Positions 43,401 through 62,697 of a stretch of DNA of 64,000 nt are shown in pieces. This DNA is from Patiria pectinifera (taxonomy: Eukaryota > Echinodermata > Asteroidea > Valvatida > Asterinidae). The notes beneath the pieces were generated by a model that was not told the DNA's origin, did not search any database, and worked only from the letters and a program-made list of their open reading frames with translations. Positions within the stretch are counted from its first letter, which is position 1. Each line of letters starts with the position of its first letter. A program made the position numbers and the translations under genes. The DNA lies in assembly GCA_029964075.1 (NCBI GenBank), contig CM057150.1, positions 4,689,717 through 4,753,716 of the forward strand. The letters run 5' to 3'.

Positions 43401-46400
43401 TTGGAGAGTACCGGATGATGGAGGTCAGCGGCCCGGAATTCAAGTTGTTTGGCCGCACCACGGTGGCCACCGACGTTTTAAAGGAAGATGCCCCAGGTAT
43501 GCGCCCCCTTAACGGTGACAAAATAGCAAGGCGAGGGGCGGGTCTGTGCGAGCGATGCTGCGTGATTAGGTACATAGAAACTGACACGACGGGTACTGTT
43601 GGCAAGTGTGTATTTTCCTGCAATCGAGGACCAACAATTGTCCCTCTTTTTAGGCCATCAGCGTCGGTCCAAAATCTTGGCCACCGGTATCAAATGAGGG
43701 GAATAATCGTCATAGCGACTTTGGGCAAGGTACAGCTCCAGAGATGGACAATACGTGATGGCATCGCTGCAGTGGCAGCTTTTTGGGTGTTATTACCCTT
43801 TTTCAAAATGTCCATCAAAACGCTTGTTACCACTCTATGGGCGGTATACCTTGCGCATGCACACTATAATCATTTATACCCCGATTCGATACTGACCAAA
43901 TCCCCAGGCTGATGGCCTATTTCTGTGTACTTAATTTTTTTAGAAAGACCTCCCATATGTCCATGTACATGTGTGATACCTTCGACCGTCCCGAGTAATT
44001 CCGAAGCGGCCTAATCGGCTCTTAAACCACCACTCTGGACAGGTTCTCGCCTTCACAGTCGTTTCCAAGTCAGAACCATAATTAATGGAGCGGGAACCAG
44101 ACTAACCGACCAAATTGGTAAACATGGATTTGATATATGCGACAGCGTTGAAAAGCGTGCGAATGCCAGCGAATGAAGTGGAAGTGTCCTTCCCACAGCG
44201 TATCAATGCGTGGGCTATTTTTCTTCGAATTAAACATACTGAAGGAATAAAACACTTTTTCATATGTAATGAGCAAAATGTTAAGGGCCTGATAATTCCG
44301 TGGGCTTTCAGTATGACTTTTGATGTAAATATATTTTTTTGAATTTAGCAGCCATTAATTTCAATCCAGTAACAATCACTATGTACAAAATCAACACATG
44401 CAGATGGCTGTAGAATAAAAAATAGTTCAAATCCTCACAAAAATGAAACTATGGCCAATTTCATCAGTGACCTTTGACCTCAGTTCAAGATTTTGCCTCT
44501 CTACAGTTGCGAGCTTCCTGAACGCCGTCGTGATGCAAGAGACCGGAAGTGACATCGTCCACGTCGAGCTGGGTAATCTGCGATCGCTGAACCTCTACGT
44601 CCACCAGGGAAATGCCTTCACACAGCCTGACCTGTTCTTGAATACGGACAGCGCATATGACCCGCTGTATCTAAAAGGTATCCAGCTTTGATGAGCCGAT
44701 CTCCAGACATAACCGAAGCCCGAATCAACATCAAAATCTGAACCCAGATAAATCTTCAGTTCAAACCCAAATTCCATGTAAGATCAAGCATAATCTCCCA
44801 GGTCTGGAACCCAAACTCAAGCCCAGCAAAATCCATACATCTGTTCGAGAACCTGAAACAGAATGCCAAATTAAGAAGCCAATTCTCAACCTCAATCTCA
44901 ATCTCAATTAAATCGCCAAACACAAACTAACAGACACGCCTAGACAAACTAACAGACAAGGTCAAAGCGGTCTATGTAGCCATCTGAATCAATATTTCAG
45001 TGCCAAGGTGAGGCTAAGCAAGTCCAGTTCACAACCGACAGTCAGTAAGTGATTCCGGGAGATACAGAGAGGATTGTAATTTGGTCCTTAACCCTAAACA
45101 CGGACATAAATCCGTATCAAAACAGAACCTTAAAACGAAACCAAGCCCTGAACACAACTTTCTGTAATACCCACAACCTAAACTAATACTCCATCCTAAA
45201 GTCCAAATATAATCGCAAAGAATTCATAAGCAAAACTCAAGACCCACACTGTACTCATTGCAAACGAAACTCCATATGCGATGGGTCTCTAAAGTTGAAA
45301 ACTTCGTCCCACGGTCAATTTGACCTCTCTTTTGAAATTACTCATAACTCTGTTATAAAGTATGATATTTGGACGTTTGACGTCTCATATTAAAGTGGAA
45401 AGGCGTATCGTTCAAACCATACCTACACAGGGCCTATCTCACTTAGTTACTCATTCTCAGTCTGGCATTCCGTTGTAATTTGTTTGCATTTTTGTTGATA
45501 CACACTGTACAATTCTCGTTGTTATACTCAGGGGTCACCGTGTTTGTCAATTCGCAATTCAGCCGGATCATGGTTGCCTTTCAAACATCCAAGATACTCG
45601 TCGACGTGGCCGCGTGGACTCAGGGCATATCGGCCGAGGTCATTGCGCTCAAGACGGTAAGCTTCGGCATGAAATCCTCGGTCGCATCCAAGACACTGAC
45701 CGCTGAGCGAAAGTGATACTGTCAGCCAAGTATTTATTTAATAAGAAATGTCATATAAAGTCCGGACATAGGCGCATCAGCAGGATCAAGACTAGCCAGC
45801 AGTGCTATAGTCAAGTCCATGACAAAAGGTCCTCGCAAGTCCACACGATTCCATCGTGAGTGCTTCGGTCTCATTATATAAATGGACTTTCCTTGTTACT
45901 GTTCATCCCAAGGTGGAAAAAAATCATGAAAGTACTTCAGATTTACTTCTGGCTGCCCAAATTGTTATGGACTCGTGATAGACGGGACTTTAAGTCAGCT
46001 TCTGATCTGCATAGAGAGTTACTAAAACCAAAACTCCCATTTCGCCACACTTTTTCAAACAATGGGTCATAACAGTCATTTTCCGCCATGAAGAGTCTGC
46101 AATAGTCCGATGTGTACAGACCGGCCGTTGACACTGACTGAAAAGCAAACAGGAATATTTTCACTGCATTAGGGGAAATTCTTCTCAGACAAAGAATGCC
46201 TTGGTTGGCCGGATGTGTGGTAAATAATGTAAACGTTGGCCGCTCCCTAAGGAGCGCCAGAAGCATAAGAGTGCCGTGGTCTAATGGCTACGACCGGTGT
46301 TTTGTGGTCTATTCTCGGGAACGGTAAGACATATTAGGTTGGGTTCCTTTCAACCACATGTTTGAACAATCAAAAACATAATTTCCGGTTATTTCAGAAA

Positions 46401-49400
46401 TTAGTACCCCTTTAACCAATAAATTAAACAACAAAAATAGGCATTTTACTCGCGAAGTTTGATAAAGCTGAGAAGACACTTTTTGTTTCAGACGATTTTT
46501 TGCTTGTTTCATATCCAGGACTTTCCCACCTCTGCAGTAGTGACTGGCCTGCTGGGTGACATGGACAATGATCCGGATAATGATATCAGACAGGTCAATA
46601 ATGCCGTCTATACCGGGGACGATCCACAGCAAATATTCGATGTCGTGAAAGAATGTAAGCATGACTATCGTTTCACTTGACTGTTAGCCTGTCTCCAAAA
46701 AAAAGTTGAATGAGCAACAGTGAATGATAAATTATAAAGTTTGCGGGTAACACCATATGGACTGAAATCTCTTCTTGTAAGAAGTGTGGTTCTGAAAAGA
46801 ATCGGTTGATTAAGTGTAGAACTCGACGTGTCGGAAAGTGTGCTCTGTCCGAAGCGTCCAGTTATATACACTCAACCAACCGGTTCTTTTCAGAACCACA
46901 CTTCTTACAAGAAGAGCTTTTTTTCACACATGGTGTTACCCACAAACTTTAAATTTTATCTCATCCGCCATGCAAAACTTCAAGTCATATATAACCGTGA
47001 ATGACATCAGTGCATGATGTAATCAAGGGCGGATCCAGGGGCGGGGGGGGGGGGCCAAAGGGGGCCATGCCCCCCCCCCAAAAAAAAAAAAAAAACCATT
47101 TTTTTGTGTGTGACATCGCAATAAAGGCAGGCAATGAGTACACCACCATCTTTTCCTCATAAAAATTAGAGCTAGCATCTAAAAAAAAAATGGGGCCCTT
47201 AAGGGGGCCCCGACCCCCACGTAATTCTTTTTTTACCCACCTTTGTGGATATGAAATCACGGCTTGATTCTGACCTGATTATGAGGAAGCCATAAAATCA
47301 GCAAACATCGGTGACCTCAGTTACAAAATTGTCTGCCATTTTCTTTTAAAAACAATCCCCGATCCTTCTAAATCTAACAAGAGACGTGCGAGGACGTCGA
47401 ATGATCACGAGAGGAGATTCCAGCCACAGTTACATGCACATGTATTTTACACACATTTCATAAAGTGGAAAATCAAATAAATGTGCATGAACCCGGAAGG
47501 TTAAAGCAAACACCCCAGGACTGACGCTATTTTTTTGTTTGGAGTTTTGGTGGAAACAAATACACTGTAAACAAAGTTGGGTAAACTACTATTAAGCATT
47601 ATTTACCCGACTTAGAAGTTACATCAATTGTTAGTCAATTTGGGTAAAATTTACCAACTGTGGACGTTTCCCGAAAAGTGTACGCAGTTTGGTGCATAAT
47701 TATGTTGACCAGCTTGGGCAAAATGCAATCCATTTACCCAATTCTTTTACAGTTAAGGAGCGTGCTAATTTGGAGTGGAAACTCCTTTGTAGTTGCCAAA
47801 GTTTACCAAATCCGAAATGGGCCCTCTTGTTGTGGCCGCGATATCTAAAAAAAAAAAAAAAAAAAATAAACAAATGGCTAATTATTTTTCTTGGTTTTTT
47901 TATATTATTTTTGTAGGGGTCACCACTAGCGGAAGTGAGCCCCCTTTCCACTATGACGGGTTAACGAAGCACAAGGACTACCAGAACGCAACATTTGTGC
48001 CCGTCTTCGTGACACCTGACTCTAGCACCCTGGACCCAGCGATAGCACCACTGCTCGAGACCACGTGTAAGGGTCTGGAGGAGTGCATCTTCGATATGTC
48101 TGTCACCCAGACCGTGGTGGCCGGGCAGAACTGCTACACGGAAAATCTGGAGTATGAGGAACGGCGTGACCAAGTCCTGGCAAAAAGTAGGTGGAGTGAG
48201 CAACCTCGTTCCAATGTCGTTCGGCTGGTACGCTTCCCTCTCACCTTAGTTTGCATCAATCGCACATCCAAAACTTGGGATGTAGGCCTAGTGCGGACTA
48301 AAATAATATTTTAGTCCGCCTACGGGTACTGCATTGACTTAAGGTACTGCACATATCTTGGTCAATTCCGCACCAACTTATAAACTGCAAGTTTTTGATG
48401 CAACAGACAACAGTACGTAAGACTTGAGGCTTTGCAAGGTAGAGATACTAACGGATGCAACTTCATTCTTCATTGATTTTGCTTCTGCTATTTAAGTGTT
48501 TACTTTCTTAGAGTTTAGGCACTCTCCTGAAGACGGTCAGAGCATATTGACCGGAACGTCGAGTTTATACCTCTGGTTCTTTTCAGAACCATACTGTTAG
48601 TCGAGAAATTATTCCCACATGGTGTTTCCGCAAACCTTTCATTCATTAGACAAAGTACACCAAAACAAATCTCATTTTGGTCTTCGTCAACTGGCCAGTG
48701 ACTCCCTTTGACACAATATCGCCTGAGGGATAACAATCCTGCCCGAATCGGCCTGCCTTGTAAATTGAGGTCATAGGTCCTACGCAATGAGAGGCTTCGT
48801 AACCACGTCACGTTTGTTTTCCAAAAGCTTGCCGTCAAAATTTAAGCTAGAGAAAATGAAATGAACCACTCCAGTTTTCTTGACGCACAACTAAAGAAAT
48901 TAGAGAAGGTTTTCGTTTTCACCGCGCACCAGAAAACTGCTCAAGCGGAGCCATGATAACTAGAGGTTGAACACTTTACTGATGTACTTGGTTCCTGTAA
49001 GTATGATGTGACTCCTTCCAGTTCGGAGCAGCAAACTATCTGGGAAATGTGAAACAGGTGTTTAATTTAATGTATGAGAACACCTATAGGACCCAAGATT
49101 TTCCATGTTTCGTATGTACATGTGTGGACGAAAGTCTCAAGATTTTGGGATGGGGATTTTTTCCATGTCGTGCTAGGTGAAAAAAAAACCACCGGTTTTC
49201 TGATGTGCGGATTTGGGCACTTCCTTAACGCGCAAGGGCTTCACCCATATTGGCCAAAGTTTTGGTCTCACGTATTCAATTTTTTTCTCTGGACAAACCG
49301 AGGATTTTATCTTGTTCCCCGTTTTAGTCATTGCATTCGTGTATTTTGTTGTTTAGTCGAGACCTGTGCGTACATACCGAGTCCTGCGAACGGGGAGGTC

Positions 49401-52400
49401 GATTACTCAAATCCGAGCGAGAAATACGCCGTGGGAACCTCCATCACTTTCTCCTGTGTCGACACCAAATCCATCCTGATTGGACCTTCAACCCGTACCT
49501 GCGAGACAATCGAGAGCAGTCCTACCTGGTCGGACGCAACCATGCCCGAGTGCTCAGGTAAAAACCAGAAATATCTAGATTATTTTTATTACATGCCACG
49601 TCCAAGCACGGAATTTTCTCAGGCCCAGCACCCGAAATCTATTTGTTATGGTCCAGTGGTTACGGTTTTGACTAATGTACGATGGTGCATGGGTTCGAAC
49701 CTTACCAGGAACTTGGTGTTTGTGCCTTTGTGCCCTTGAGCAAGACACTTTACTACAATTGCCTCTCTCCATCCAGGAGTATAAATGGGTACCTGTGAGA
49801 GTCGAGGACCAATTGAGCGCTGATATCGGCTGCCGCGTGGTCCCATGGCCCGATGAACGGGGGAATAATTGTAAAGCGCTTTGAGATCGTTGATACGATG
49901 GATGGAAAGCGCTATGGAGGCACAATTACTAACTTATTATTATTATGCTTCTTAGGTATTCACTTCGAATCAATAATGTTCAGGATATACGAAGTGCATG
50001 AGATTTTATGCCCATATTACCAGTCGCCGTGCACTCTCTTTTGGGCAACTACTTTCCCGACATTGGGGTAAATATGAACTCCCTTAATTATGTTTCGAAA
50101 GAGGCGCTGGGTGTTTGATATAGCCTATTATGACCAAAAAAACTGTGGCAAATCAGTATTAACCAACTTTCTCTTACCAACCACAAGCGCATTTCTCCTC
50201 TCAAAAAAAAAAAGAAATCTCAGAGAAATCACTCTTCGTAAGCTATGTTTCACATCATCCCTGCCAAAAATCTTCCATTCAAAATGTTTTTTTTTCATCA
50301 ATTCGGGGTTTACTCCACTCTCAGCAACAAACTGCAACACTGACGAAGTGGGTGGAGCCGACGTCATAAGCACGAGCTACGTGAATGGCAATCTGCAGGT
50401 CGTCTTCGGCTGTCCGGGCACATCGGTGCGTTACACGCTGACCTGCATAGGGGGCAGCTGGGAAGGCGCCAGGGTCGACTGCTTGGGTAAGACGACCGTC
50501 TTTTTCTTCCTTATAAAGGGCTCGTTCACTGACGGCCATTTCTGTAGGAAAAGTGCAACTGCGTATTTTACGCAATCGAGCAAGCATTGCACAGTGTTGA
50601 AAATGTTTCAAACACGCGCGCTTGTTGCTCGAAATGTGTTCGAAATACGACGCAGCTGACATGGGCGTCGCCAGGATTTTTTCTAGAAGGGGGCAACATT
50701 TTTTTTGTTGCCAAAAAATGCTTGTATTTCTCAACACATTCTCGATTTATCAGTTTAAGAGGGGGGCAGGGACATTTTGCCCCCCCCCCCTCAACTCATT
50801 AAATGTACACCACTTTGTCTTCGCGCCTCTATTTCTTTTCTTTTTTTTCTTTTTTGTTCTTCCTTTTTTAAATAAAATCCAATTAAACTTTTTTTTTGTG
50901 TATTGTCTTGCCCCTAATTTCCACTTTTTTTTTAATCAATGCGTTCGCCACCATAACAAATTGATTATTTCAATGTTTACATTGGCCTTGGTATGTGTAA
51001 TTTGAAGGTGAAAAGTGAATACCAATAACTGTCAGCAGGCTTGTAACAAATAAGAATCAAGTTTGGTCCTTCGAACGCAAGGGTTTAAATCCCGGTGAAA
51101 TAGGAGATTAAATAAAACCATTTTTTTATACTGAGTTGGGGGATTGTATGGTTCTCCTCTCCAATATTAAGGTTGAACAAAAAATGTCGATCGCGACAAC
51201 CTTGTCAACATGAGCACACGAAATGTTCAGGTATTTTTTTGGAAATATGAAAACTAACAATTGAAAACCCAGGACACCAAAAAATGTCGATCGCGACAAC
51301 CTTGTCAACATGAGCACACGAAATGTTCAGGTATTTTTTTTTTAAATATGGAACTAACATTTGAAAACCCAGAACACCAATAAATTAAAGTTTAACTGAC
51401 ATGCAAATCGCCGGTAATGGACGTAATTTGATAATATGAACACAACCGTCTTGTGCCTGACGATTTTTTTAAAAAGAGCCTCCGTGCCGCCACTGTCGTC
51501 GAAGATGAAAAGTGTTCATCGATTCGCGAAAGCTTGCCTGTACAAAACACGTTGGCGTGATAGTAAAAACAAGTTATGTATGTTTGCATTTATTTTTCAT
51601 GATTAGTATACAGGCAAAATGCCTAATTGGGTTTTCTTTCTTTTTTTGAGAACAATTTTGGAGGAGTATAAATTGTTCTTATCTCTACAGTTATCGTTTT
51701 GTTTGCAAGGCCCGTGTGTTCTTACTTTGATCCAGTTTCAAACTTTAAGGTATACATGAAACGTGGTAAACCGATAATGGTTAACAAAAAGGCAAAGGCA
51801 TCGGCAGATTAAAGGGAATGATACGCGATACAGTCCATCACAAGTCCCCACAAGTCCACACAAGTCCTAACAAATCCTCTCCAATCCTCACAAGTCCTCA
51901 CAAGTCCTCCCAAGTCCCACAAGTCCCACACGTCCATTCCGAGTTATTCAACTATAAGTCAATTCAATAACTATTCAAGATGTAATAAATCCTTCGTTAT
52001 TGCACATCGTTTGTGTTTGTGGCCGAGCTAGAGACCGGCTTGTGAATGGACTTGTGATTTACTTGTGACATGACTTGTGATGTCCTCAGCCACAACACTA
52101 GGTTGACGATAATTGAACATGAGTCCAGGCATAGCTTCATGCTATATTGAATACAAGACAAATTCCATAGCTATAGACACTGTGATTTGTTTTTTGTGCA
52201 ATATGATCAACACCCGATCAGTAGGGTGCAGCAGCCGTAGGGTGAATTCCAACACTGCCCAGTCGCTTCGCATTATGTGAATGTAAGATGAGGCTCACCA
52301 GACGACTGTTTTCTCGTTCAAACCGGAGTGTTTATGAAGAAAAGTAGAACACTGGCAGTCTGCACTCTCAAATCGCAAAAATTATGTGGAAATCATGTAG

Positions 52401-55400
52401 CGAGAACTGAACGATCAATTTGACACTGAACACTTTGTGCCTTGTTCGCCATTTATCAGAGGCGTAGCAAGGTCATTTTCATTGGGGGATAAAAAGTTTG
52501 TGAAAAGGGCACTCGAACATCCGTGCTGAAAAGAAGACCCCAGTGTTTTTCTCTCCGGACACTTGGCCTCCGTAAAATCAAATGGGGGGTAGCTTCTTCC
52601 TATGGGGCGCTGTTCAAACCGGACAATTATGCACACTATCGGACAATAAATGGCGCTTTTCAGGGCGGCACAATTGCAGTCGGTCGCGCGTAATTCCGAA
52701 AAAGGGCACTCCAATAAAGGCGGCTGGTAAAAACTGGCACTTTTTTTTCCAAGGGCACTTGTTTACAAGAAAAGGGCACTTGTTAAAAAATTGGGCACTT
52801 TTGACCAAAAAATGGGGGGGGGGTAGTAAATGCTTGAGAAAAAAGGGTAATTGAATGGAATAGTGCAGTCCTTACAAAATATTGGGTTTTTTAATCCACT
52901 TCCCCCCCCCCCGCCTCTGTTTATTAATTAAACATGGGCAATGAATATCTTTCGATAAATATGAAGTTGAAATATAATGGTTTCAACCGAGAATAACTCA
53001 TAACTCGTGTTCTCAACCGATTCGGGGCGCTTTTCAAAAAATCGCGTACTCACGTACAAAAATTCATTATATGTTTCAGTGCAAAAGCCGCAAAAACAAG
53101 ATTATCTTAGCACGAGGACACCCCCTTGCCCCTTCTGTTTGTACTTCCAAAATGGCGTCCTTACAGCGCCCTTTGTCGATGAGGCACGTGACCTCAGCAG
53201 CATTTTAGTTCAATAAAAGGGTTTTATTGTAATCTGCTTTGCCTTGCCTTTTTGTCGTCCATGTTATGAACAGCGGAAGCTGGGGGGCTTAGCGGAGGGG
53301 CGATCGCCGGGATCGTCATCGGTTCCCTGGTCGGGGTGGCTCTGATCGTTCTCGTCGTGGTGTTCTTTCTGAGACGGGGAGGTTTTGGCGAAAAGGACTT
53401 GGAGCAAAGCGGGTAGGTCACTTTTTTGATGATAAATGTCACAAAATTTCACCGCGAGAAAATCAAATAAATTAAATTAATACAAACTTCTTTACTGAAT
53501 GGATTGACTAGGGTTAAGAACCGAACAGCGAGGAGACACAGACATGCATGGGTGAAACGAACGAACAAACAAACAAACAAACAAACAAACATTACATTGC
53601 TGTTGGATCACCCAGTTTGTTCCAAACTTGATTGCTGCTTCTAGCGCTATACTATAATTTAAACAGAACAAACAAATGAAGAGCCACAACATAGTAAAGC
53701 AGCCTAATTTGCATGAGCAACTGATGAATGCACACACCCTACAAAATCCGCTTTTTTTGATTGTAGCACACCGCGGTGATATCACACTTGTTGACACAGT
53801 TGCACGTTGTCAAATGATGATGATTATAGAGAAAAGGCATTTCGTTCTATTCTATGGTTTGTGTTTTAATTGCTTAAATCCGAATGTTGGTGGAATTGGA
53901 CATTATGACTGGAACTGTTCAATTTATGTACAATCTGAGAAAGACGCTTTAGCGTTTATTTTTTGTCTTCGGCTGCATAGTTGGCATTGTCTGTAGTCTT
54001 GGTAATTTTGCCCCATTATATTTTGATTAATTTGTAACCACGCCCATGAACAGTCAATGATTTTCTAAGACAGATTTCTCAAACTGTAATTTCTGTAGAA
54101 TTCCAACCATAATGTTATCAAGATCCCCACTAATGAAACGTCCACGAACATGAATGCCATGCTGACGGCTGTTTCATGAATTGCATATTTTTCATTTTTT
54201 TTTCAGGACGAAAGTGAACGCGCCGGCCGAAAATTGGGGAATGGAAGAGGAGGGGAAGAACGCCTCGGCCTCCTTAGGAGGCGTAGCGGGTCATGCCTCG
54301 GAGGTCTAACGGCTCGGAGATTATTGACAAATGAAATAGTCGTCGAGGTTTGGACAACAACCCTTTACTTTAATATCTTTGGGAAGCTACGTTTCTGTGC
54401 TTCAAAAATTACAGTGGGCATTGTGGTGTTGACTTTATAAAGAAATAAACTCAGTTTCAGTTTAGCTACACTATAATTTTATGAATACAGTAAGCGGAAG
54501 GGAAATACAGACTCATTACTTACTCTCTAAATTCCAAAGAGTGAAATTAGGGACTAGACGTTTTAAAGTGAAAATCACTCTCATTTTTGATTAACATTCG
54601 ATCTGAAAAATGAACCACTTCAGTCGAAGCTCGAGTGAAACCTCGATCTTTACGATTGAAGAAATTTCACTCTAAAACGTCTAGTCCCTAGTTTCCGACT
54701 GTGGGAGTGAATCTTCACTCGAATGGAGTGAATTTTCACTCTTTAGAATTTAGATATATATATATACTGACAATCAGAATTTGGGATAAACAACCCCCCA
54801 TAAATGGGGTTTAGATTACCGACAGCAAACATACCACTGTCCTCCATCCACTGAAAGTAAAACGTGAAGTCAAAATGTGAAGTCAAAATGTACACATAAA
54901 TACAGGATTTGTTTGTTTTCCAATTACTTAATTCATAGACATGCCGCTTTTGCTTTGTATTCATGATGTCTAGAGATTATTTTTCCATAAAGATATTCCC
55001 GCCTCATTTAATTGTTTAGGATGAAGTACAATATAGTTCAGATTAAAAACGTGTACCCAACAGCAAAGCATTTTTACATATCTGATAACCATAGTGCACT
55101 TGAATATACTTTTCTTTATGTAAATGTAGACTCACTTCTTTATGTATATAAGGTAATAATTTACCTACCGAAACCAAATTGAGAGCACTGTGTTTGCCCA
55201 TTTGGTGCAAAGTTTTATACGTTTTAAAGTCATTATACTTTAGTTTTGTTTCTTAATCTGAAACTCCTAGTGTTATGAAATGTAGCCTGTGTGATAGAGT
55301 CTGTCCTATAAGCCATCTAATAACGTGCAAAATAATCCCTGCTCTTATATGCAGACGATCATGTACGTACCAAGGGGTCACTCGCTGAAAATGTATTGAG

Positions 55401-58400
55401 TGGTTTACCCAAAAAAGTCAATGTTTGTAAGTGCAATGGTAAGAATAATTTTAATGAGGTGACAGATGGAATGTTCCATTCAATGAGGCGAAGACGAGTG
55501 GAATGGAACATTCCATCTGTCACCGAATTAAATTATTCCTTCCATTGCACGAATGTTAAACATTCATTATTTGTTTGATACAACGCCTGAATAGTACGAC
55601 CGTGGAATGGAACGTTTATTTTTGCGGTGCGACCGGACCATGGTTTGGGACAGTTCTTTGAATGCCACGTGATCAACGAATCACCAATCAGATGACGGTG
55701 ATTTATTTTGGTATTTTACATGAATGAATTAACATTTTGAAAAAAAAAATCTTATTTGTTATTGTTGGTAATTGTATTGTATACGTTAAGAGAATACTCT
55801 GTATGCGTTCTGAAGATAGATAGTCGGATTTTTTTTTAAATTATGCAATTCTGAGTACATTCTCATTCTCTAAAATTCACTTCAAAAACGTCGGTGCTAA
55901 TTTGCATGTTTTTATTGGGGGAGTTGTTCCATATTGTTCATGTGAATTCATGACTATATGAAATTATTTAACTAAAAAGATGCAGTCGGAATAATTTCAT
56001 TTAATGTTTGGAAAACAGAGATATGCAATGAAGTATTTTTTTTCCTTATGAACCTGTTCCAGTGTTTTTCCCAATATAGCATTTGGACTTTTTGATAGAA
56101 ATTCGAATTTAAATTCGCAACATCCAGTTATTTTCCTCATAATTCATGTTAACGTCATCACAAGCACCATTGCAAGCTCATTTTATTCACGATCGATCTG
56201 CTAAGCCGGCTAAGCATGTAAATACGCTTTTTTTTTTATTATCCCTCCTCGTGTTCATTGAGAATGATATTTCAATAAATAAATTTGAGAACCACATATT
56301 AATTTTGTAATAAAGAAAAGTGAACTCTCTAATGTATCGAAACTGAGATTCCACTTGTCTCCTTTTCTTCTGTACTTTGTTTCTTAGAATACTTGCAAAA
56401 TGTGCCAACAAATATGGGACCTCGCTTTTTTAATCATGGGACGGAAATGAAACCTGTATATATTAAAATCATTTTTTATGAACTATGAATTATTTTATTA
56501 TTTTCAATTTTAGGAAATAAATGAAAAAAATTCGCATCTCCCTTGCACGCCATTTGCTACACATACCTTTAAGTGTTGATATTACAATGTGGAAATAGCA
56601 CATGCATATATGCTTACTCTCCCTCACCTGTTTGCGAAAAAAAGAAATCGACCCATATTGCCCTGCCCCCCCCCCCGAAAAATTGGTTATGGACCCGCCC
56701 TTGAATGTAGTGCAGCTGTTAGTAGTTAATTAATTCAAATGAGTCTTAATAACACTTCATTATGTCTTTGAAGTGTAAATTAATATTGTTACAATATTAC
56801 TTTGGATGGTTCGACATTATGAGTTGTCTAGTTTTCATGCATTTCTACAGGATATTTTGATTCGTTATCAAAAATCTTTTAAAAATTACATGGAATCTAC
56901 ACGAATTTCTAACTCAACATGTTAGTTTAAGAAGCATATAAAGTGCTTCAAAACCAAATATGAAGTAGTAAAACAGTCAAGAGTTCGACCGGCACTCAAC
57001 CAAAAAAAAAGTTAAGTTTTAGTCTTTTCCCAACTTGTGCCAGTTGGTCCTAAGATACAGAGGTGTTCCGGTATCTTAACCCTATTTATGAGGCGTGCTT
57101 ACCCGTACCTTTAAAAAATGTTAAATACAAACTTTTTTTGTTTTTGGCAGATGACGGTAGCCGCGGTAGGACCATTGGAATCAGCATCGGTCTAGTCCTG
57201 GCGGTTCTCGTCTGTCTCGGCGCCATATTGTGCGGCATCATGTGCTACAAGAGAAAACCGGTAAGGCTATGCTCATAGTTATCAGTTGCGGCGCCAGACT
57301 CTAAAATTGGGGAGGGGCGACGGGTAGGGGGAGGGGGAAGCTAATTCCCCATGCCCTCCCGTAGCGCCGCAACTGAATATGTCTGAAACTGTCCAAGTTG
57401 GCTGCAGAGATTGGCCGCGGCCTCGAGCGAAAGCAAATCGATTTCTATTGGCCATTATTTTGACGAGCGAGAGCGCTATTGGTGGGTTCAAACCGGCACG
57501 AATCCCGGGTTAATGACGTTATTTTACATGCTGCAGTGGCGGAGGGGGGGGGGTATAACACCCTCGAGCCGCAAACAAGGAAAATCATGCATCAAAAACT
57601 AGCACCTGTTATCTTCTCCCCCCTCAGCTATCTTCTTCTCCCCCACGCCAACCCCCTCCAGCGGTAACAGCCTACGTGCCACTGTAATCCATAAAAAATA
57701 ATTGTTCCTATCTTTGATTTTAAGATTTCAATCAAGTGAGAGCTTCCCCATTAATTTTGCTGTGTGACCCATATCTGGAAACAACATTCTGTTATATAAA
57801 AAATATTGTGTTTATGGGCAAGAAAAGTATAGCTAAGCATATTTAATCATCCGTCGTTCAACTGTCATTGCGAGCTCTGACCTCTTATTCTGAACTATAA
57901 ATTTTCAAATACTGAGAATGTCAAATTCCGTTCGAGTCATTTTTTTTTCAGTTGAATACTTTTCTTAAGGATGACATGTGTGCTATGGATAAAGAAAGAC
58001 TAACCGAAAAAGCTCACATTTATCAGCTTTTACTAAATTACTGTTTCGGGAAGGGTAACTACCGCGTAGTCGTGGCCGAGCGGTTAAGGCGACAGACTAG
58101 AAATCTGTTGGGGTCTCCCCGCGCAGGTTCGAATCCTGCCGACTACGAATTTCTTTTATCAATTACTGGATTAACTTCAAATATTACCTAAATTAGAATT
58201 TCATCTACAAACCTTTGAAATTGAAGACCGCGCAGTAGTCGTGGCCGAGCGGTTAAGGCGACAGACTAGAAATCTGTTGGGGTCTCCCCGCGCAGGTTCG
58301 AATCCTGCCGACTACGAATTTCTTTTACCAATTACTTGATTTGCTTAAAATATTACCTAAACTAGAGTTTCAACTATAAAACATTGAAAACATAGAACGC

Positions 58401-59620
58401 CAGTAGTCGTGGCCGAGCGGTTAAGGCGACAGACTAGAAATCTGTTGGGATCTCCCCGCGCAGGTTCAAATCCTGCCGAATACGAAATTCTTTTATCAAT
58501 TTCCCGATTACGTCACAATACATAAACTAGAGTTTCAACTATAAAACAGTTAAAAAACATAGGACGCCAGTAGTCGTGGCCGAGCGGTTAAGGCGACAGA
58601 CTAGAAATCTGTTGGGGTATCCCCGCGCAGGTTCGAATCCTGCCGACTACGAATTTATTTTTTATTAATTGCTGGACGCACCTAAAAGATTCCATAAGCT
58701 AGAGTTTCGTCTACAAAACTTCAACAATTTGGCCCGCGCAGTAGTCGTGGCCGAGCGGTTGAGGCGACAGACTAGAAATATGTTGAAGTCTCTCCACGCT
58801 GGTTCGAATCTTGCCGACTACGAAATTATTATCTGGATCATTTTTTATTCAAAATATATGTACTTGTATTCACTTCAAAATATCATCTTGGACACAATGT
58901 TGTTTTGATATCTACAGGTCCTATGTGCTTTGTTAATTGTCATGATGTTATTTGTGGATATCATTTAGCCCTGCAATCGCTGTCTGATTGGGTCATTTCA
59001 GGTTCGGTTTTACTTTGTAAGGTGACTTTTTGATTCCAATACTTTTTATTGCTCTTTGATTCTTGCAGCGAGGGTGGTCACCCTGGTCGAGACAATCGTA
59101 TGACGTCGTGGCAATGACCGAGAATCTGGGCATCGAGAAGGCAGAGGTCGGGGAAACAACTAACGCCGACCCCGAAGCTGCGCATCGGTCGAAATCCGCC
59201 TCAGGTGCACCGGCCGACGGCCCGGAGGCCCCCATGCCGGACGTGGTGGCGCGCGGTGCTGAAGGTGACGCCGGCACTGATGACAATCCGGCCGGGATCT
59301 GGCAGGGGCCGGACGTCAATTCAGCGCAAGGATATGACGAGCCCGATGACCTGGCCAATGACTCCGCTGATGACAAACCAACAATGTCAGATGGCCAGAA
59401 GGTACCGGCGGAGGGCGCCAGTGCCAAGCCTACCCCTCCCACCAAACCGTCCAGAAAGGACCGGCCGGCCTCCCGGATCGGTGTCGGTGACACACAACAG
59501 GGAATGAGCACGGGAGCCAGACCTGGCCAGAAGGCGGGCGAAATGTCTTCTTGGAACGATGGCGGAGATATTGCGGACCTTGGAGACGACAAACCTCCCG
59601 TGAGGGAATTATTCATTTGA
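25414..59620 (+). CDS. MUC4/SUSD2-like membrane protein (NIDO-IPT-AMOP-VWD-sushi), two alternative ends
   Basis: This entry covers the whole gene; the exons are listed separately. It is a type I membrane glycoprotein for the cell surface. NIDO, AMOP and VWD together are known in MUC4, SUSD2 and related adhesion proteins. Eighteen common exons encode the following, by residue: signal peptide 1-27, NIDO about 60-270, IPT/TIG-like 277-371, a beta-type linker domain 372-483, AMOP 518-677, VWD 678-875, a Cys-bearing segment 875-964, and sushi-type modules 965-1031 and 1032-1085. Every junction keeps the frame. Two 3' ends follow: A (53274-53412 plus 54207-54309, 1,165 aa) and B (57151-57260 plus 59069-59620, 1,305 aa). 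No EGF modules or long mucin array were seen, unlike vertebrate MUC4. Sushi modules after the VWD recall SUSD2, but NIDO and IPT do not. True orthology is open. Confidence 0.88.
29146..29610. mobile_element. TTAA-targeting MITE (piggyBac-like), copy 2
   Basis: It starts CCCTAAAGGGGCCGG and ends CCGGCCCCTTTAGGG, with TTAA on both sides (29,142-29,145; 29,611-29,614). The body matches the copy at 20,260. Its ends are less changed than in copy 1, so it may be younger. Confidence 0.8.
30126..30343 (-). repeat. Dispersed repeat, copy 2 (reversed)
   Basis: It reads as the reverse complement of 18,921-19,336, but with the middle shortened. Shared blocks are ACTTCCATAGACCCCAATGG and TTGAGGGCATGCAA. 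Confidence 0.65.
31507..31634 (+). CDS. MUC4/SUSD2-like exon 2: NIDO start
   Basis: Phase 1 in, phase 0 out at GTAAGT. After a linker it reads LTEPFPFYNRKYDSIF. The F-x-F-Y-x-x-x-Y-x-x-I-F pattern is the opening strand pair of NIDO domains. Confidence 0.85.
32477..32560 (+). CDS. MUC4/SUSD2-like exon 3: NIDO
   Basis: A 28-codon, phase-0 exon starting VNDDGILTLGAPLP, which matches the V-N-x-x-G-x-L-x-F strand of NIDO. It ends with MGDV before GTGAGT. Confidence 0.88.
33370..33627 (+). CDS. MUC4/SUSD2-like exon 4: NIDO core
   Basis: An 86-codon, phase-0 exon. It contains VVIAPLWSEVNTADPASTGT then VYYRVG, the I-A-P-x-W-x-x-V-N signature of NIDO followed by its next strand. It ends at CAG|GTATAC. 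Confidence 0.92.
33746..34063. mobile_element. MITE family 4 (hAT-like), copy with target duplication
   Basis: The ends CAAGGGCGGATCCAG and CTGGATCCGCCCTTG are inverted repeats. GGTAACGG on the left and GGTAATGG on the right are an 8-bp target duplication with one change, the size used by hAT elements. It lies within a GCGTAGC-type repeat (33,711 to about 34,125). Confidence 0.75.
34235..34725. mobile_element. Foldback family 5, copy 2
   Basis: CACGAAGTAACACT recurs in both directions, and the outer arms (CACCGACACCACGGAGTAAC and a reversed partner near 34,705-34,728) pair with some changes. The inner TTTTCACGAACTGA is shared with the element at 18,081. Confidence 0.6.
34855..34959 (+). CDS. 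MUC4/SUSD2-like exon 5: NIDO core
   Basis: A 35-codon, phase-0 exon reading PNSFQAILVYDSLRSFVIFY then YSELNYL. The N-x-F-Q-A-x-L and S-F-V-I-F-x-Y motifs are the most typical stretch of NIDO. Confidence 0.93.
35115..35270 (+). repeat. Dispersed repeat pair, copy 1
   Basis: It shares AACTGCGTATT, AACACGC and GTTGCTCGAAATGT blocks in order with 50,518-50,660. Both lie in introns of the same gene. Confidence 0.55.
35714..35829. mobile_element. MITE family 3, copy 2
   Basis: CGTTTGTTTATGGTGAAAAT at the left and ACACCATAAACAAACG at the right, the same termini as at 6,768. The middle is shorter. It lies in the intron before NIDO exon 6. Confidence 0.7.
36381..36552 (+). CDS. MUC4/SUSD2-like exon 6: NIDO end
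   Basis: Phase 0 in, phase 1 out. It begins VGFNAGDIWGGFSYPFP and later has GAYVFRVD. The G-F-N-A-G-D and W/Y-x-F-R-V-D motifs close the NIDO domain. Confidence 0.92.
36553..37180. other. Intron between NIDO and IPT exons
   Basis: A strand with few G and many C and A (CCTAACCTTAACTCTAAC and similar). I recognise no repeat family or exon. Confidence 0.4.
37181..37465 (+). CDS. MUC4/SUSD2-like exon 7: IPT/TIG-like domain
   Basis: A 95-codon exon, phase 1 at both ends, so it is a self-contained module. It starts with VWPISGPMMGGNKISLAP, close to the P-x-x-G-P-x-x-G-G-x-x-I/V-x-I pattern of IPT/TIG immunoglobulin-like folds, and has paired cysteines (TCDL, TCVF, VCIP). The GC content is well above that of the introns. 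Confidence 0.75.
37764..38100 (+). CDS. MUC4/SUSD2-like exon 8: beta-type linker domain before AMOP
   Basis: Phase 1 in, phase 2 out at GG|GTGAGT. It contains SPLTITWVPSLF, LRISIMQYDE, and TFSFTPGPLENI. The alternating hydrophobic strands resemble the region between NIDO and AMOP in SUSD2/MUC4 relatives. I do not know a named domain for it. Confidence 0.8.
38101..40504. other. Unclassified intron block with minisatellite
   Basis: 38,425-38,755 is a degenerate tandem array of about seven or more units like AGTAAACCTCGCTGTT with spacers of about 25-30 bases. 38,760 to about 40,080 has a different texture from other introns: balanced bases, few homopolymers and many CG pairs. No conserved protein was recognised in any frame, so I give it no family. 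Confidence 0.5.
40505..40606 (+). CDS. MUC4/SUSD2-like exon 9: pre-AMOP segment
   Basis: Phase 2 at both ends. It reads YPVALYSDAHMLGYLLDQDY then WADAEC. The L-x-x-L/M-G-Y-L-L and W-A-x-x-x-C patterns precede AMOP in SUSD2 and MUC4. Confidence 0.87.
41579..41791 (+). CDS. MUC4/SUSD2-like exon 10: AMOP domain, first part
   Basis: Phase 2 at both ends. It contains LPSYLANVPPCPCTLEQAQI, the hallmark L-P-x-x-L-x-x-x-P-P-C-P-C of AMOP, then spaced cysteines (GGC, SC, RRC). Confidence 0.94.
42273..42538 (+). CDS. MUC4/SUSD2-like exon 11: AMOP domain, second part
   Basis: Phase 2 in, phase 1 out. It has AECCYDVDNSNLVL, then VDVMPYQVCCRWGDDDAC, and RRPKGCADY. The two C-C pairs and R-P-x-x-x-C-x-x-Y finish the AMOP pattern. 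Confidence 0.94.
42560..43085 (-). mobile_element. LINE 3' fragment with (AGC)n tail
   Basis: Read on the minus strand, the sequence starts like the C-terminal part of a non-LTR retrotransposon ORF2: LLYACESLVVTKHFETYI, then CYRIVLKISQRYHF, then a KWLGHALRKP-like stretch. The order C-E-S ... C-Y-R-x-x-L ... W-x-G-H is common in RTE/CR1-like LINEs. The later part has stops and is decayed. The minus-strand 3' end is a run of AGC triplets (42,560-42,590), typical of the simple tails of such elements. It lies in the intron between AMOP and VWD exons. Confidence 0.7.
43338..43496 (+). CDS. MUC4/SUSD2-like exon 12: VWD start
   Basis: Phase 1 at both ends. It reads FIFGDPHFITFDQRRYTFNG then GEYRMM. 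GDPH-x-x-T-F-D and Y-x-F-N-G-x-G-E-Y are the VWD opening signature. In MUC4 the GDPH motif is a known cleavage site (between Asp and Pro), and it is intact here. Confidence 0.96.
43497..44506. other. Intron between VWD exons
   Basis: An open frame runs on from the VWD exon into this intron, but the good donor at 43,497 and loss of VWD motifs show it is intronic. I see nothing else here. Confidence 0.45.
44507..44677 (+). CDS. MUC4/SUSD2-like exon 13: VWD
   Basis: Phase 1 at both ends. It reads VASFLNAVVMQETGSDIVHV and then VELGNLRSLNLYVHQG. This matches the A-T-x-F-x-A-V-A-x-Q strand found in MUC4/SUSD2-type VWD. Confidence 0.93.
44678..45531. other. Intron with strand-asymmetric A/C-rich tract
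   Basis: 44,695-45,270 is rich in A and C and poor in G on the + strand, with loose AACCCAAA and CTCAATCTCAAT repeats. No family was recognised. Confidence 0.45.
45532..45656 (+). CDS. MUC4/SUSD2-like exon 14: VWD
   Basis: Phase 1 in, phase 0 out at GTAAGC. It reads GVTVFVNSQFSRIMVAFQTS and continues with hydrophobic strands (KILVDVAAW). This is the middle of the VWD sheet. Confidence 0.88.
46519..46654 (+). CDS. MUC4/SUSD2-like exon 15: VWD end
   Basis: Phase 0 in, phase 1 out. It reads TSAVVTGLLGDMDNDPDNDI. The G-L-L-G-x-x-x-x-D-x-x-x-D acidic loop is the conserved end of VWD and probably binds calcium. Confidence 0.93.
46715..46985. mobile_element. Palindromic element, relative of 4,968
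   Basis: AAAGTTTGCGGGTAACACC at the left and GGTGTTACCCACAAACTTT at the right, then inner arms TTCTTGTAAGAAGTGTGGTT and reverse. The right flank also has CCGCCATGCAAAACTTCAAG, matching the GGCTTTGCATGG edge of the first copy in reverse. Confidence 0.7.
47024..47245. mobile_element. MITE family 4, right-truncated copy
   Basis: It starts CAAGGGCGGATCCAGGGG and shares GACATCGCAATAAAGGCAGG with the copy at 33,746. The right inverted end is missing. Confidence 0.65.
47246..47916. other. Intron before exon 16
   Basis: No exon. 47,560-47,760 repeats TTTGGGTAAA- and TTTACCCA-like blocks in both directions, possibly a further foldback. A run of about 20 A lies near 47,850. Confidence 0.4.
47917..48186 (+). 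CDS. MUC4/SUSD2-like exon 16: post-VWD cysteine segment
   Basis: Phase 1 at both ends. The first codon is a split Trp. It contains FHYDGLTKHKDY, TTCKGLEECIFDMSVTQT and GQNC. A C-x-x-x-x-x-C-x-x-D segment follows VWD in MUC4 and SUSD2 relatives. The donor at 48187 (GTAGGT) gives the right phase; a second GT at 48191 would not. Confidence 0.9.
48418..48648. mobile_element. Palindromic element, relative of 4,968
   Basis: It opens GACTTGAGGCTTTGCAAGGT and ends ATGGTGTTTCCGCAAACCTT. Between them is GGCACTCTCCTGAAGACGG and GACCGGAACGTCGAG, a block absent from the first copy. Confidence 0.65.
49357..49557 (+). CDS. MUC4/SUSD2-like exon 17: sushi (CCP) domain 1
   Basis: A 67-codon, phase 1-1 exon, the usual one-exon form of a sushi module. 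It has four cysteines (ETCAYIPSPANG; FSCVD; RTCE; PECSG) and the conserved W before the last one (SPTWSD). Confidence 0.94.
49632..49948 (+). mobile_element. tRNA-derived SINE
   Basis: The head has an A box (TGGTCCAGTGGTTACGG) and a B box (GGGTTCGAACC). The body has CCTTGAGCAAGACACTTTAC and ATAAATGGGTACCTGTGAG. The end has AAAGCGCTTTGAGATC, AAAGCGCTATGGAGG and a TTATTATTATTAT tail. This order is typical of tRNA SINEs in marine animals. It lies in the intron between the two sushi exons. Confidence 0.8.
50325..50486 (+). CDS. MUC4/SUSD2-like exon 18: sushi-type module 2 and branch point
   Basis: A phase 1-1 exon with four cysteines (TNCNTD; FGCPG; LTCIGGSW; VDCLG) and the typical G-x-W before the last. 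It is short for a sushi domain. This is the last exon common to both forms; its phase-1 end fits the start of both anchor exons. Confidence 0.88.
51180..51379 (+). repeat. Two tandem ~98-bp copies
   Basis: AAAAATGTCGATCGCGACAA through AGCACACGAAATGTTCAGG occurs twice, head to tail, with very few changes. The core TCGATCGCGA is itself palindromic. The close match suggests a recent duplication. Confidence 0.85.
51838..51937 (+). repeat. CACAAGTCC tandem array
   Basis: About ten irregular units of CACAAGTCC and CCAAGTCC. About 110 bases further on, GGACTTGTGATT, ACTTGTGAC and GACTTGTGATGTCC (52,045-52,083) are complementary to them. Confidence 0.75.
53274..53412 (+). CDS. MUC4/SUSD2-like cassette A: membrane anchor exon
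   Basis: It enters in phase 1 after GAACAG and leaves in phase 2 at GG|GTAGGT. It reads AEAGGLSGGAIAGIVIGSLV and continues GVALIVLVVVFF with a LRR stop-transfer, then GGFGEKDLEQSG. This is a clear single transmembrane segment. A decayed duplicate lies at 20,927. Confidence 0.9.
53557..53590 (+). repeat. (AAAC)n microsatellite
   Basis: About eight units of AAAC, partly AACG, in the intron within cassette A. Confidence 0.8.
54207..54309 (+). CDS. MUC4/SUSD2-like cassette A: tail exon and stop
   Basis: It restores the phase-2 codon and reads TKVNAPAENWGMEEEGKN, then a small-residue stretch ending HASEV and TAA at 54307-54309. The tail is short and acidic. The PAENWG core is also kept in the duplicate at 21,493, which supports its being real coding sequence. 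Confidence 0.85.
54444..54449 (+). promoter_or_regulatory. Candidate poly(A) signal of form A
   Basis: An AATAAA 135 bases after the form A stop. It is placed where a short terminal-exon 3' UTR would end, so form A could be made by ending transcription here. Confidence 0.45.
54527..54751. mobile_element. Foldback downstream of cassette A
   Basis: TAAATTCCAAAGAGTGAAAT faces a reversed AAAGAGTGAAAATTC arm; the inner GGGACTAGACGTTTTAAAGT also pairs. It is absent from the relic duplicate at 21.6-22 kb. Confidence 0.7.
55420..55564. mobile_element. Palindromic element downstream of cassette A
   Basis: GTGACAGATGGAATGTTCCA faces its reverse copy around a short GAGGCGAAGACGA loop, with outer arms GTGCAATGG and CCATTGCAC. 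It is also absent from the relic duplicate. Confidence 0.75.
55565..57150. other. Region between cassettes A and B
   Basis: The first 400 bases match the end of the relic duplicate. The rest is AT-rich. A GGACCCGCCCTTG remnant of MITE family 4 stands near 56,690. No exon was seen. Confidence 0.5.
57151..57260 (+). CDS. MUC4/SUSD2-like cassette B: membrane anchor exon
   Basis: It enters in phase 1 after TTGGCAG and leaves in phase 0 at CCG|GTAAGG. It reads DDGSRGRTIGISIGLVLAVL then VCLGAILCGIMCYKRKP. This is a second, unrelated single transmembrane segment with a basic stop-transfer and membrane-side cysteines that could be palmitoylated. Confidence 0.88.
57261..58065. other. Cassette B intron before the tRNA array
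   Basis: It holds a GC-rich repeat-like stretch (57,290-57,380, with facing GGCGCCAGACT and AGCGCCGCAACTG parts) and G and C runs. No exon is supported. Confidence 0.4.
58066..58147 (+). tRNA. tRNA-Ser-AGA: tRNA-Ser(AGA), copy 1
   Basis: 82 nt. The acceptor stem GTAGTCG/CGACTAC pairs fully. The anticodon arm ACAGA-CTAGAAA-TCTGT gives AGA, and the long class II variable arm is GGGGTCTCCCC. A box (TGGCCGAGCGG) and B box (GGTTCGAATCC) are intact. A TTTT terminator follows within 10 bases. It closely matches the animal tRNA-Ser(AGA) as I know it. Confidence 0.96.
58235..58316 (+). tRNA. tRNA-Ser-AGA: tRNA-Ser(AGA), copy 2
   Basis: Same sequence as copy 1 over all arms, with all stems paired and both promoter boxes intact, and TTTT shortly after. 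It starts 169 bases after copy 1. The flanks are also similar, so the repeat unit includes more than the gene. Confidence 0.96.
58403..58484 (+). tRNA. tRNA-Ser-AGA: tRNA-Ser(AGA), copy 3, slightly degraded
   Basis: The 3' acceptor strand is CGAATAC instead of CGACTAC, which breaks one acceptor pair. The variable arm has one change (GGGATCTCCCC), and the T loop has A for G. It may still be transcribed, but it is probably losing function. Confidence 0.8.
58570..58651 (+). tRNA. tRNA-Ser-AGA: tRNA-Ser(AGA), copy 4
   Basis: All stems pair. The only visible change is one base in the variable-arm loop (GGGGTATCCCC). The T run follows about 4 bases after the gene. It is likely functional. Confidence 0.93.
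58741..58822 (+). pseudogene. tRNA-Ser(AGA)-like copy 5, decayed
   Basis: The anticodon is still AGA, but the anticodon stem has a mismatch (TATGT for TCTGT). The variable arm is lost (TGAAGTCTCTCCACGC) and the T stem is broken (CTGG against CTTG). It is probably a dead copy at the 3' end of the array. Confidence 0.8.
59069..59620 (+). CDS. MUC4/SUSD2-like cassette B: long tail exon and stop
   Basis: 183 codons in phase 0, ending at TGA 59618-59620. It starts RGWSPWSRQSYDVVAMTENL and becomes rich in Ala, Asp, Glu, Gly and Pro (for example PTPPTKPSRKDRPASRIG), ending PPVRELFI. It looks disordered and acidic with one Pro/Lys/Arg stretch that could bind SH3-type domains, and a hydrophobic C-terminus that could be a PDZ ligand. 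Both are guesses. The GC content is much higher than that of its surroundings. Confidence 0.87.
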   Translation, partial: RGWSPWSRQSYDVVAMTENLGIEKAEVGETTNADPEAAHRSKSASGAPADGPEAPMPDVVARGAEGDAGTDDNPAGIWQGPDVNSAQGYDEPDDLANDSADDKPTMSDGQKVPAEGASAKPTPPTKPSRKDRPASRIGVGDTQQGMSTGARPGQKAGEMSSWNDGGDIADLGDDKPPVRELFI

Positions 59621-60010
59621 GTCAAGATGAATTTCAGGTCCAAACTATATAAGTCCTAACTTGCAGCTTCAACGGTAAGCAAATCCGAAACACACAAACA
59701 TGCAAACACACCCAATACTCACATCAACTAAGAACAAACAGCCTTCACCTTAAAAAAAACCAACCCATATTATTCGCTATTTCTTATCTATGTCTGAGGG
59801 AACTTCGCTTGAAAACATTTGACAAGAACAAGTACTGGACGAGTCTATAATAACCGTACTATATAACTATCTATCGAACTTTTCTTTGGTTTTATAAGGT
59901 TTTTAAGGTTTTTGTCATATCAAACTTAAAGTGTTCGCATAAAAAGGACAAAAATAAATACTGATGTGACTGAACTGTTTGAAAAGGCAGTCACATTAGT
60001 ACGCGGTTTC

Positions 60011-60016
60011 AATAAA
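60011..60016 (+). promoter_or_regulatory. Candidate poly(A) signal of form B
   Basis: An AATAAA about 390 bases after the form B stop, followed some 25 bases later by a GT-rich stretch (TAGTGTGTGTT), the usual downstream element. Confidence 0.55.
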
Positions 60017-62697
60017 CTTGGGGCCGAGGTAGAGTCTTTTTAGTGTGTGTTCTTTGCTAGCGCTTTTCTTCAATAGTACAATGGATATACATGAAACTTT
60101 CACCAAATATGTCCAAAATACCAGCCTATAACATATCTCATTTGCACTTGTTTTGATAATTGCTACATATTTTGAATATTTTCTTTAATTTGGGTCCAGA
60201 TCATTCTGATTCACCCTGAAGATATGTTCAATCAAAATGTAAGATCAATGAAAACAAGTTTGATAGAAAGAAAATGTTGAAGAAATTTAGTCTGCTGACT
60301 CAACAAGTGCACTCTTTATCAATGGAACTAGCCTGAACATCGAGATGGTTTCTTAGTTGTGTTGTCTTAATGTAAAATGTTTGTATAACGAGAACAAGGA
60401 AATATATTGTAATAAATAGACTTGTATGAAAAATCAGTTTGTTAATTTAGTTTGCTTTTGAATATTTGTGCCCCTTTTTTTTCAATTCTGCTTAGTAAAT
60501 TGTTCTTGTCTCATAGGAAACGTATACTTACCTTATACATTTTGTTTATGTTCAGGCTACTACTTAAAATCGCCGAATACTCAGTTTTCACATTATTCTT
60601 TAGAAGCAGGTTCTTTATTTTACATATTTATCAGCATTATCGTCAACAGATTCTGAATTATTGTACATTTGTTTGATTCACATCAAGTAAAGCAACGCTT
60701 ATTAATATGTCGTTAATATATTTGTTCCGATAGTTTTAAGTATCGTAGCTTTTCATAATTTTGAATTTGTTTTGAAGGTTTTTTTTGTGCTTTCGATTCT
60801 TTGGATGATATTCAGTGTTCAATCCTGATTATGCAAGTAAACCAATCAATGCAACGTTTGTTAATAAACCTTACAGTAATTTATATTTAATTTTGTAAAT
60901 GAATGCTGAAATGATTATAAAATGCATAAATGTCATAAAGATTAGGGTGTTTTTTTAAGGGTTTTGCTTTCCTTTTTTCAATCTAATGATTGATGTTTGT
61001 GCCGTAATGATGAAAGAACGTAATATCTATCAATTCGCTAATCAATTGCAGTTACAAGTGAAGCTCTGTAATGTATGTTGAAGAAAACCAATGAGGACAG
61101 TCAATAATATTAATTTACGGGGGTTTTGGGTTCAATTTGGATGTTGTAACCGAGAGGTATATTTTGTTATAGACTACGTTACTTTACATTGTGCTTTATA
61201 CTCCGTCATCAATAGACTACAACTTGCCCTTGCTCTCCCTTTATACTGCTGTATTTAAAAAAAAAAAGTAATAAAACAGATATCAAGTCTTCCTGAAGAA
61301 ATTTGCACTCTTCGTATTCATAATGAAATCTCATTTTGTGTAAATCAGTGGCTGTCATATGTAATTATATCAACAACGTCGAATGCGGTATGTTGCTTGA
61401 GTTGCAACAAAACAAAAGATAACCCTGCCCGGGCCTGACGCCGCGCCATGATGTATCAAATCCAAAGCGGAGCAGATACTCGGTGTTCCCCTTATATTTT
61501 TATTGGAACCCCGAGCTTCGCTTGAATGAGGCCCTCTGTCCTGTTATCAATTAGTCAGCTTCTAGAAAAAAAATCGTTCGGTACAAAATGCAAAGGTTAA
61601 AGGGTAAAGTTAGGAGATATTGTTTGATCACGGGCTGAGGGTGTGCCTTCGCGGTAATAGCGCCATCACTCGCTTTGCGGCCAATCACGATGCAGCAATC
61701 AATCAAGTCCCGGAAGTTAAGAAATTCTGTCCGATGCGGGCGCTCTAAAGACCAGCCGGCCATGATGGCGTTTGTGAAGTTGCGATTGCGCAGTACATTG
61801 AACCCTTCACCCAATGCAAGTCATACATTTGGCATTTCTCAAAACCCGATTTGTCTCCAGATGCGTCTTCAACTCGACACCGAAACAATGCGTGGCCAAT
61901 AATATATGCAAATACTGGAAGACCCAAAACAGTGGCTGCTTTCGTGGGACTCAAGTCGGGTTGCCACAAATCACGAATCTGCAGAATGTAGCCTCGGTCT
62001 GAGGTGAGGTCGGGGTTTCAAACAATGGCCCATAATTGTGCTCTGCGCCTCTGCGGCAATGCAATGAACTTTGCCCGGTTGGGCGCGTGGGTAGCTTGCA
62101 TCAACATCGTACCATAAGTCAATCATTAACTCCGAAACAATAACTGATCGGACATGGACGCTTAGATGACAAAACAAGCATTAATGCTAATCGCCGCTCC
62201 GCCTACAACGATCAGCTCTGTTCTCTTTCGCTTTGTAATTCCGGTGTAATCAACAGAAAAATAATTGATTGGAATATTTTGAATGCCAGAGGGATAGTGC
62301 GTTAATTGAATTCCTATTAGATTATGTCACAACTTCGGGGATTTGCCCATGACTCACCGCTTACTCCACTCGACATATCTTCATTTATTCAAAAATAATT
62401 AAAAAACATGGGCAAGTACACACTTTGTACTTGCAATGAGAAATAAACAAAATTCCAGTGGTTATTACTCATGCCACGTTTTATATTTGTTTTTCAAAAA
62501 AACAAGAATATGAGTCAGAAAATTACCAGAAATTAAAAACTGGTTAAAACAATATAGTTCAGTTAAAGCAAGATGATGAGTCAAACTTTAATGAAAGTCG
62601 ACCTTTAGCGTCAAGGCGGATTCGAGGGGCCATAGTTTTGCATCGCTTGTATATATGCATGTGTGAATATCCGGACGCGTGGTCGCTGCACACACAA

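Follow-up and report, generated by a model that had tools for sequence, protein, structure and literature searches.

The 64,000-nucleotide stretch analysed here (the window; positions 4,689,717 to 4,753,716 of the forward strand of contig CM057150.1) comes from the echinoderm Patiria pectinifera, whose genome assembly (GCA_029964075.1) comprises 613.5 Mb in 1020 contigs. Its plus strand carries what is probably an animal Mesh-like gene, coding for a single-pass cell-surface protein and provided with two alternative pairs of last exons, as judged from the genomic sequence. Joining at GT-AG sites gives 18 phase-consistent exons between positions 25414 and 50486, which encode a signal peptide, judged by eye, and a NIDO-AMOP-VWD-sushi-like ectodomain. 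Two in-phase terminal exon sets follow one shared donor, that of exon 18 (e18, at 50486), each with an exon for a membrane anchor and an exon for a cytoplasmic tail. The presence of two such pairs on one ectodomain, both phase-consistent and coding-like, is supported. The initial annotation had proposed e18 and both pairs with the coordinates, phases and stops given below, and the exon joining bears it out.

The first pair, A, consists of A1 (53274–53412), which encodes membrane anchor A and runs from phase 1 to phase 2, and A2 (54207–54309), which enters in phase 2 and encodes tail A up to a TAA stop, the last residues being -SEV. An AATAAA at 54444–54449 is the candidate polyadenylation signal of this ending. 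In the second pair, B, the anchor exon B1 (57151–57260) runs from phase 1 to phase 0, and B2 (59069–59620) enters in phase 0 and encodes 183 residues of tail B up to a TGA stop, ending in -LFI; its candidate AATAAA is at 60011–60016, with others at 59953 and 60411. All these features are on the plus strand, and all junctions of the shared exons and of both pairs are GT-AG. The anchor exons were located by exon joining, anchor scans and codon scores, the tail exons by exon joining, codon scores and an exon search, and the polyadenylation signals by motif count.

The protein with ending A has 1165 residues and that with ending B 1305, with one membrane span near the C-terminus (best 21-residue mean hydropathy 3.02 in A1 and 2.77 in B1). 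Anchor A is rich in glycine, and ending B has Cys and Lys/Arg at the inner membrane face. The marked contrast between the tails that had been noted earlier is confirmed. Tail A, counted after two arginines, is short and net acidic, its 45 residues containing 8 acidic and 3 basic residues and a single proline, with the C-terminus -HASEV. Tail B, counted from KRKP, is a low-complexity stretch of 187 residues (33 acidic, 21 basic, 20 prolines) with three PxxP stretches and the C-terminus -RELFI. We take -SEV to resemble a class I PDZ ligand, -LFI a class II-like one and PxxP a predicted SH3 ligand; a PDZ-type motif, claimed for ending B, is thus present there but is not exclusive to it. Pfam gave nine matches for ending A, all below the cut-off and reflecting a generic anchor likeness, and none for ending B. 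The donor of A1 (53412–53416) overlaps an in-frame TAG, so that unspliced A1 would end in ...DLEQSG, anchored and nearly tail-less, and the e18 intron, if retained, would add 57 residues before a stop. Within the e18–A1 intron, at 51180–51370, a sequence of almost 60 bases (AAAAATGTCGATCGCGACAACC...) is seen by eye to occur twice in tandem. The B1–B2 intron contains five tandem tRNA-Ser(AGA) genes on the same strand (58065–58822), spaced about 170 bp apart; 11 genome matches of at least 90% identity were found for this tRNA gene, five being those in the intron, five on C15 and one on C1.

The shared exons were placed by exon joining, all on the plus strand, and their domains by a Pfam search with the whole protein. 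Exon e1 (25414–25495; phase out 1) holds the putative start codon and the signal peptide. The NIDO domain (PF06119; 90.2 bits against a cut-off of 25), in the N-terminal part, begins in e2 (31507–31634), which also covers the residues before it, continues through e3 (32477–32560), e4 (33370–33627) and e5 (34855–34959), and ends in e6 (36381–36552). Exon e7 (37181–37465) occupies the region of the Mesh TIG domain, for which Pfam gives no match either with the whole protein at E up to 1 or with the e7 piece at E up to 10. A divergent TIG is indistinguishable from none, and the label “Mesh-like” is used for this reason. Two further ectodomain exons, e8 (37764–38100) and e9 (40505–40606), lead up to the AMOP domain (88.4 bits, cut-off 25, residues 515–660), whose first and second parts are in e10 (41579–41791) and e11 (42273–42538), both also recovered by a genome search for AMOP. 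The VWD domain (30.3 bits, cut-off 22.9, residues 680–856) follows, in e12 (43338–43496), e13 (44507–44677), e14 (45532–45656) and e15 (46519–46654), so that the AMOP-then-VWD order is present in the encoded protein. Exon e16 (47917–48186) resembles MUC4 C8-3 (15.9 bits) and e17 (49357–49557) a sushi domain (15.5 bits, cut-off 20.7), both below the Pfam cut-offs. The last shared exon, e18 (50325–50486; phase out 1), had been described as a sushi exon; its Cys/Trp pattern, judged by eye, agrees with this, but e18 alone has no Pfam match. Upstream of the Mesh-like gene, at 8429–14175, open frames were seen by eye that resemble pieces of an adhesion-type G-protein-coupled receptor, with a 13-residue stretch and, after it, membrane segments.

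That two complete anchor-plus-tail pairs follow one ectodomain, as had been claimed, is upheld by chance and coding tests. The first anchor scan looked for a hydrophobic segment between a phase-1 acceptor and a good donor; with its acceptor and hydropathy limits loosened, it returned exactly two phase-1 membrane exons in 50487–64000, A1 and B1, and none of 60 dinucleotide shuffles gave a match at this setting. Applied to both strands of actual C22 sequence (163,084 bases), the relaxed scan gave seven phase-1 matches, four of them in the family (A1, B1 and the anchors of the paralogs gene2 and gene3) and three others, the non-family matches amounting to about 0.12 per 13.5 kb of one strand. Codon scores, trained on e1–e18 and given in bits per codon, were 0.31 for A1, 0.32 for A2, 0.26 for B1 and 0.41 for B2 in the predicted frame, no other frame exceeding 0.07 (0.07 and 0.04 for B2), a score that reflects G+C content in part; the shared exons, left out in turn, ranged from -0.16 to 0.60. 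Non-exonic open stretches of the plus strand between 20 and 61 kb had 99th percentiles of 0.08, 0.07, -0.01 and -0.18 at 34, 36, 46 and 100 codons, and maxima of 0.44, 0.39, 0.06 and -0.18, respectively. All four ending exons exceed the 99th percentile, A2 and B1 lie below the maximum (0.44 and 0.39), and B2 is both the longest and the highest-scoring. A coding-scored search for plus-strand phase-1 exons from 50487 on found only A1, B1 and pieces of B2; a further ectodomain exon for either ending was sought among such exons in 50487–57150, where A1 alone was found, so that this search revealed no other ectodomain to which A or B could belong. For each anchor, a terminal exon that continues in phase and contains a stop was located.

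The genome search for AMOP gave 32 matches, counted as exons, and at C22:4769797–4837917, beyond the window, a cluster of at least three further AMOP genes lies on both strands. The comparison covered the 3' sides of four paralogs that contain introns and in which an anchor exon was recognised: gene2 and gene3 on C22, and one gene each on C7 and C14 (8 kb for each of the latter two), the exon preceding the anchor being assumed to end in phase 1. A further gene of C22, gene4, has no anchor exon within the 11.5 kb scanned and was left out of the four. The anchor exons of gene2 and gene3 run from phase 1 to phase 0 and measure 110 and 104 nt, B1 having 110 nt, and those of the C7 and C14 genes run from phase 1 to phase 2, as A1 does. 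In the parts scanned, gene2 and gene3 showed no A-type exon; a tail could not be located for the C14 gene. A second hydrophobic match near gene3 was set aside because it falls on the strand opposite the acidic-basic tail exon of gene2. On C9 and C19, six Mesh-like genes that appear to lack introns (L030 and L055–L059), perhaps old retrocopies that have since multiplied, have open frames of up to 1573 residues, each with one anchor that ends the frame, and are 27–30% identical to the two-ending gene over the VWD-sushi part; some carry repeated, near-identical sushi domains. A genomic copy of e13 at L043:7679–7933 (C21) includes part of the upstream intron, which rules it out as a retrocopy that might have frozen one ending.

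The origin of the endings was addressed by alignment, with whole-sequence shuffles as a reference that inflates the alignment scores of membrane segments. A derivation of pair A by copying of pair B was rejected: the alignment of the two anchors is weak (score 34, equalled by 8 of 300 shuffles), and that of the tails does not rise above shuffles (58 of 300). Nor did anchor scores settle on one ending as the type of the family. Against the gene2 anchor, B scores 35 (4 of 300 shuffles as good) and A 32 (70 of 300); against the C7 anchor, A scores 41 and B 44, with no shuffle among 300 as good for either. Tails A2 and B2 were also aligned with those of gene2, gene3 and C7; in the best case, 13 of 300 shuffles did as well for A2 and 24 of 300 for B2. 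Anchor A begins with GLxxGxIAxI, as do the anchors of four of the six intronless genes, a start that does not prove common descent because it is also found in an array on C15. The scores of anchor A are 52–69 against three intronless Mesh-like genes, and the best, 92, is against a gene of a C15 array; an anchor of the form GLSxGAIAGIVxG is therefore not diagnostic.

Several observations weigh against two functional endings, or lessen the value of what first spoke for them. The first, stricter anchor scan found B1 and missed A1, whose acceptor is pyrimidine-poor; this acceptor is weak (2.1 bits), with only 3 of 17 shared acceptors lower. Among phase-2 candidates for the second exon of pair A anywhere after 53412, pieces of B2 rank highest and A2 third, at 10.5 bits. 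None of the four paralogs has two endings in the stretches covered. A genome search with tail B matched only itself, and ending A, apart from its own locus, matched stretches of anchor type, with one match (C15, E 0.002) extending to residue 68 of 80, so that neither tail shows conservation. Each anchor had been said to be locked by phase to its own tail. Because A2 precedes B1, splicing can produce only two mixed orders, A1–B2 and A1–B1–B2, and both do lose the frame and meet a stop. A mismatch between A1 and B2, however, is expected two-thirds of the time with random phases, and the A1–B2 product would still be anchored, with an odd end of 16 residues and a stop within the last exon; the phase lock is thus weak evidence. 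Pair A does have its own AATAAA, as had been pointed out, but such signals are frequent here by chance, the 2.8-kb e18–A1 intron alone containing six AATAAA and five ATTAAA.

One rival reading is that the gene uses ending B alone and that pair A is a relic or an unused cryptic intronic pair. The acceptor of B1 (11.3 bits, with one of 17 shared acceptors higher) is strong and that of A1 weak (2.1 bits), the anchor exon of the tandem paralog gene2 matches B1 in phases and in its 110-nt length, that of gene3 is likewise 1 to 0 at 104 nt, and the scanned parts of both genes lack an A-type exon. A1 and A2 are nevertheless open, coding-like, in phase and ended by a stop, when decay would be expected of an old relic, and we regard exclusive use of B as unlikely. 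The converse, that only ending A is used and that pair B is the remnant of a tandem duplicate with lost ectodomain exons or the end of another transcript, would fit the tandem duplication of the family on C22, the resemblance of B, by phase and length, to anchor exons of the neighbouring genes, the 6.7 kb that an e18–B1 intron would have to span and the five tRNA genes within the B1–B2 intron. It has little probability: the interval from 54.5 to 57.15 kb yielded no ectodomain exon in phase 1 that could belong to B, no other ending exon is as long as B2 or scores as well, and a duplication may have created a second ending and left it in use. Slighter still is the chance that a third ending matters more, either the anchored, nearly tail-less form from unspliced A1, with its in-frame TAG right at the donor, or a secreted form from retention of the e18 intron, with its 57 residues and stop, since most introns hit a stop by chance.

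The reading with two alternative last-exon pairs is therefore preferred, and we infer that both endings are made. The e18 donor (50486; 7.3 bits) faces two acceptors, that of A1 nearby (53274) and that of B1 further off (57151), and would join one or the other. The near join would lead to A1–A2 and, with cleavage after the AATAAA at 54444, would remove B, yielding the 1165-residue protein with about 45 net acidic cytoplasmic residues; the far join would lead to B1–B2, with cleavage near 60.03 kb, and to the 1305-residue protein with a tail of about 187 residues. Weak near acceptors set against strong far ones are a common layout in regulated alternative last exons. The choice may be set by such competition, with or without control by polyadenylation. 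Since the A1 acceptor is near and weak and the B1 acceptor far and strong, splice-site competition appears at least as plausible as the control by early polyadenylation initially suggested. The two tails may bind different PDZ or SH3 partners, and the protein may work at cell junctions as Mesh does. A more elaborate proposal combines a two-way switch, in which the class I -SEV and class II-like -LFI tails on different anchors are chosen by weak-near and strong-far acceptors, with an ancestral two-ended state preserved here, each paralog having kept one type (1 to 2 on C7 and C14, 1 to 0 on C22). A phase would be shared by chance in one gene out of three, so the ancestral state is put forward as no more than a possibility, and the combined proposal is unlikely.

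The closest known systems differ from the gene described here in distinct respects. Mesh of Drosophila and DVSSJ2 of the corn rootworm, smooth septate junction proteins, are likewise single-pass, with NIDO, AMOP, VWD and sushi domains in this order (PMC4964579), an order found here too, with the sushi part below the Pfam cut-off; proteins of the Mesh type form a complex with Ssk. DVSSJ2 has a TIG domain, for which the protein encoded here has no Pfam match. MUC4 and SUSD2 of vertebrates share AMOP and VWD with it, and MUC4 also NIDO (PMC4902942), but SUSD2 has a somatomedin B domain, a difference from the present protein. The initial annotation knew of no comparable alternative endings in the MUC4/SUSD2 group, which is not supported in this general form: fly mesh has three isoforms that differ in the cytoplasmic region (PMC4964579), and 3'-end splicing of MUC4 is, by their titles, the subject of papers cited in PMC4902942. 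Retained intron sequence between the last exons of SUSD2 has been reported in lung tumours (PMC2889901). The available text on the fly isoforms does not speak of an anchor swap, and the cited passages on MUC4 and SUSD2 describe no two-anchor arrangement, unlike the A and B endings; PMC8277862, in the part available, deals with Ssk copies and not with mesh endings. No description of two alternative anchors, whether for Mesh, MUC4 or SUSD2, occurs in the literature searched, which covered few subscription papers and not the original Mesh paper, and echinoderm literature on the AMOP domain was absent among the matches listed.

Alternative endings that swap anchor and tail together are already known from other receptors. 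Nectin-2 alpha and delta have a common ectodomain and different transmembrane and cytoplasmic regions, and cell adhesion leads to tyrosine phosphorylation of delta and not of alpha (PMC8779676, in the passages available), so that such swaps can change signalling; with its V-set and C2-set domains, nectin-2 is an analogue in its working and not a member of the family. In Drosophila Dscam1, exon 17 exists in two alternative transmembrane versions, either of which may be chosen, with an apparent effect on subcellular localisation, but these are mutually exclusive exons in an Ig/FN3 receptor, as opposed to the two last-exon pairs found here (PMC8787164, likewise in part). Provided that both forms are made, a single receptor of epithelial adhesion or of junctions could connect to two scaffolds inside the cell, with anchor and tail both swapped, within the Mesh group, whose tails reportedly vary in flies.
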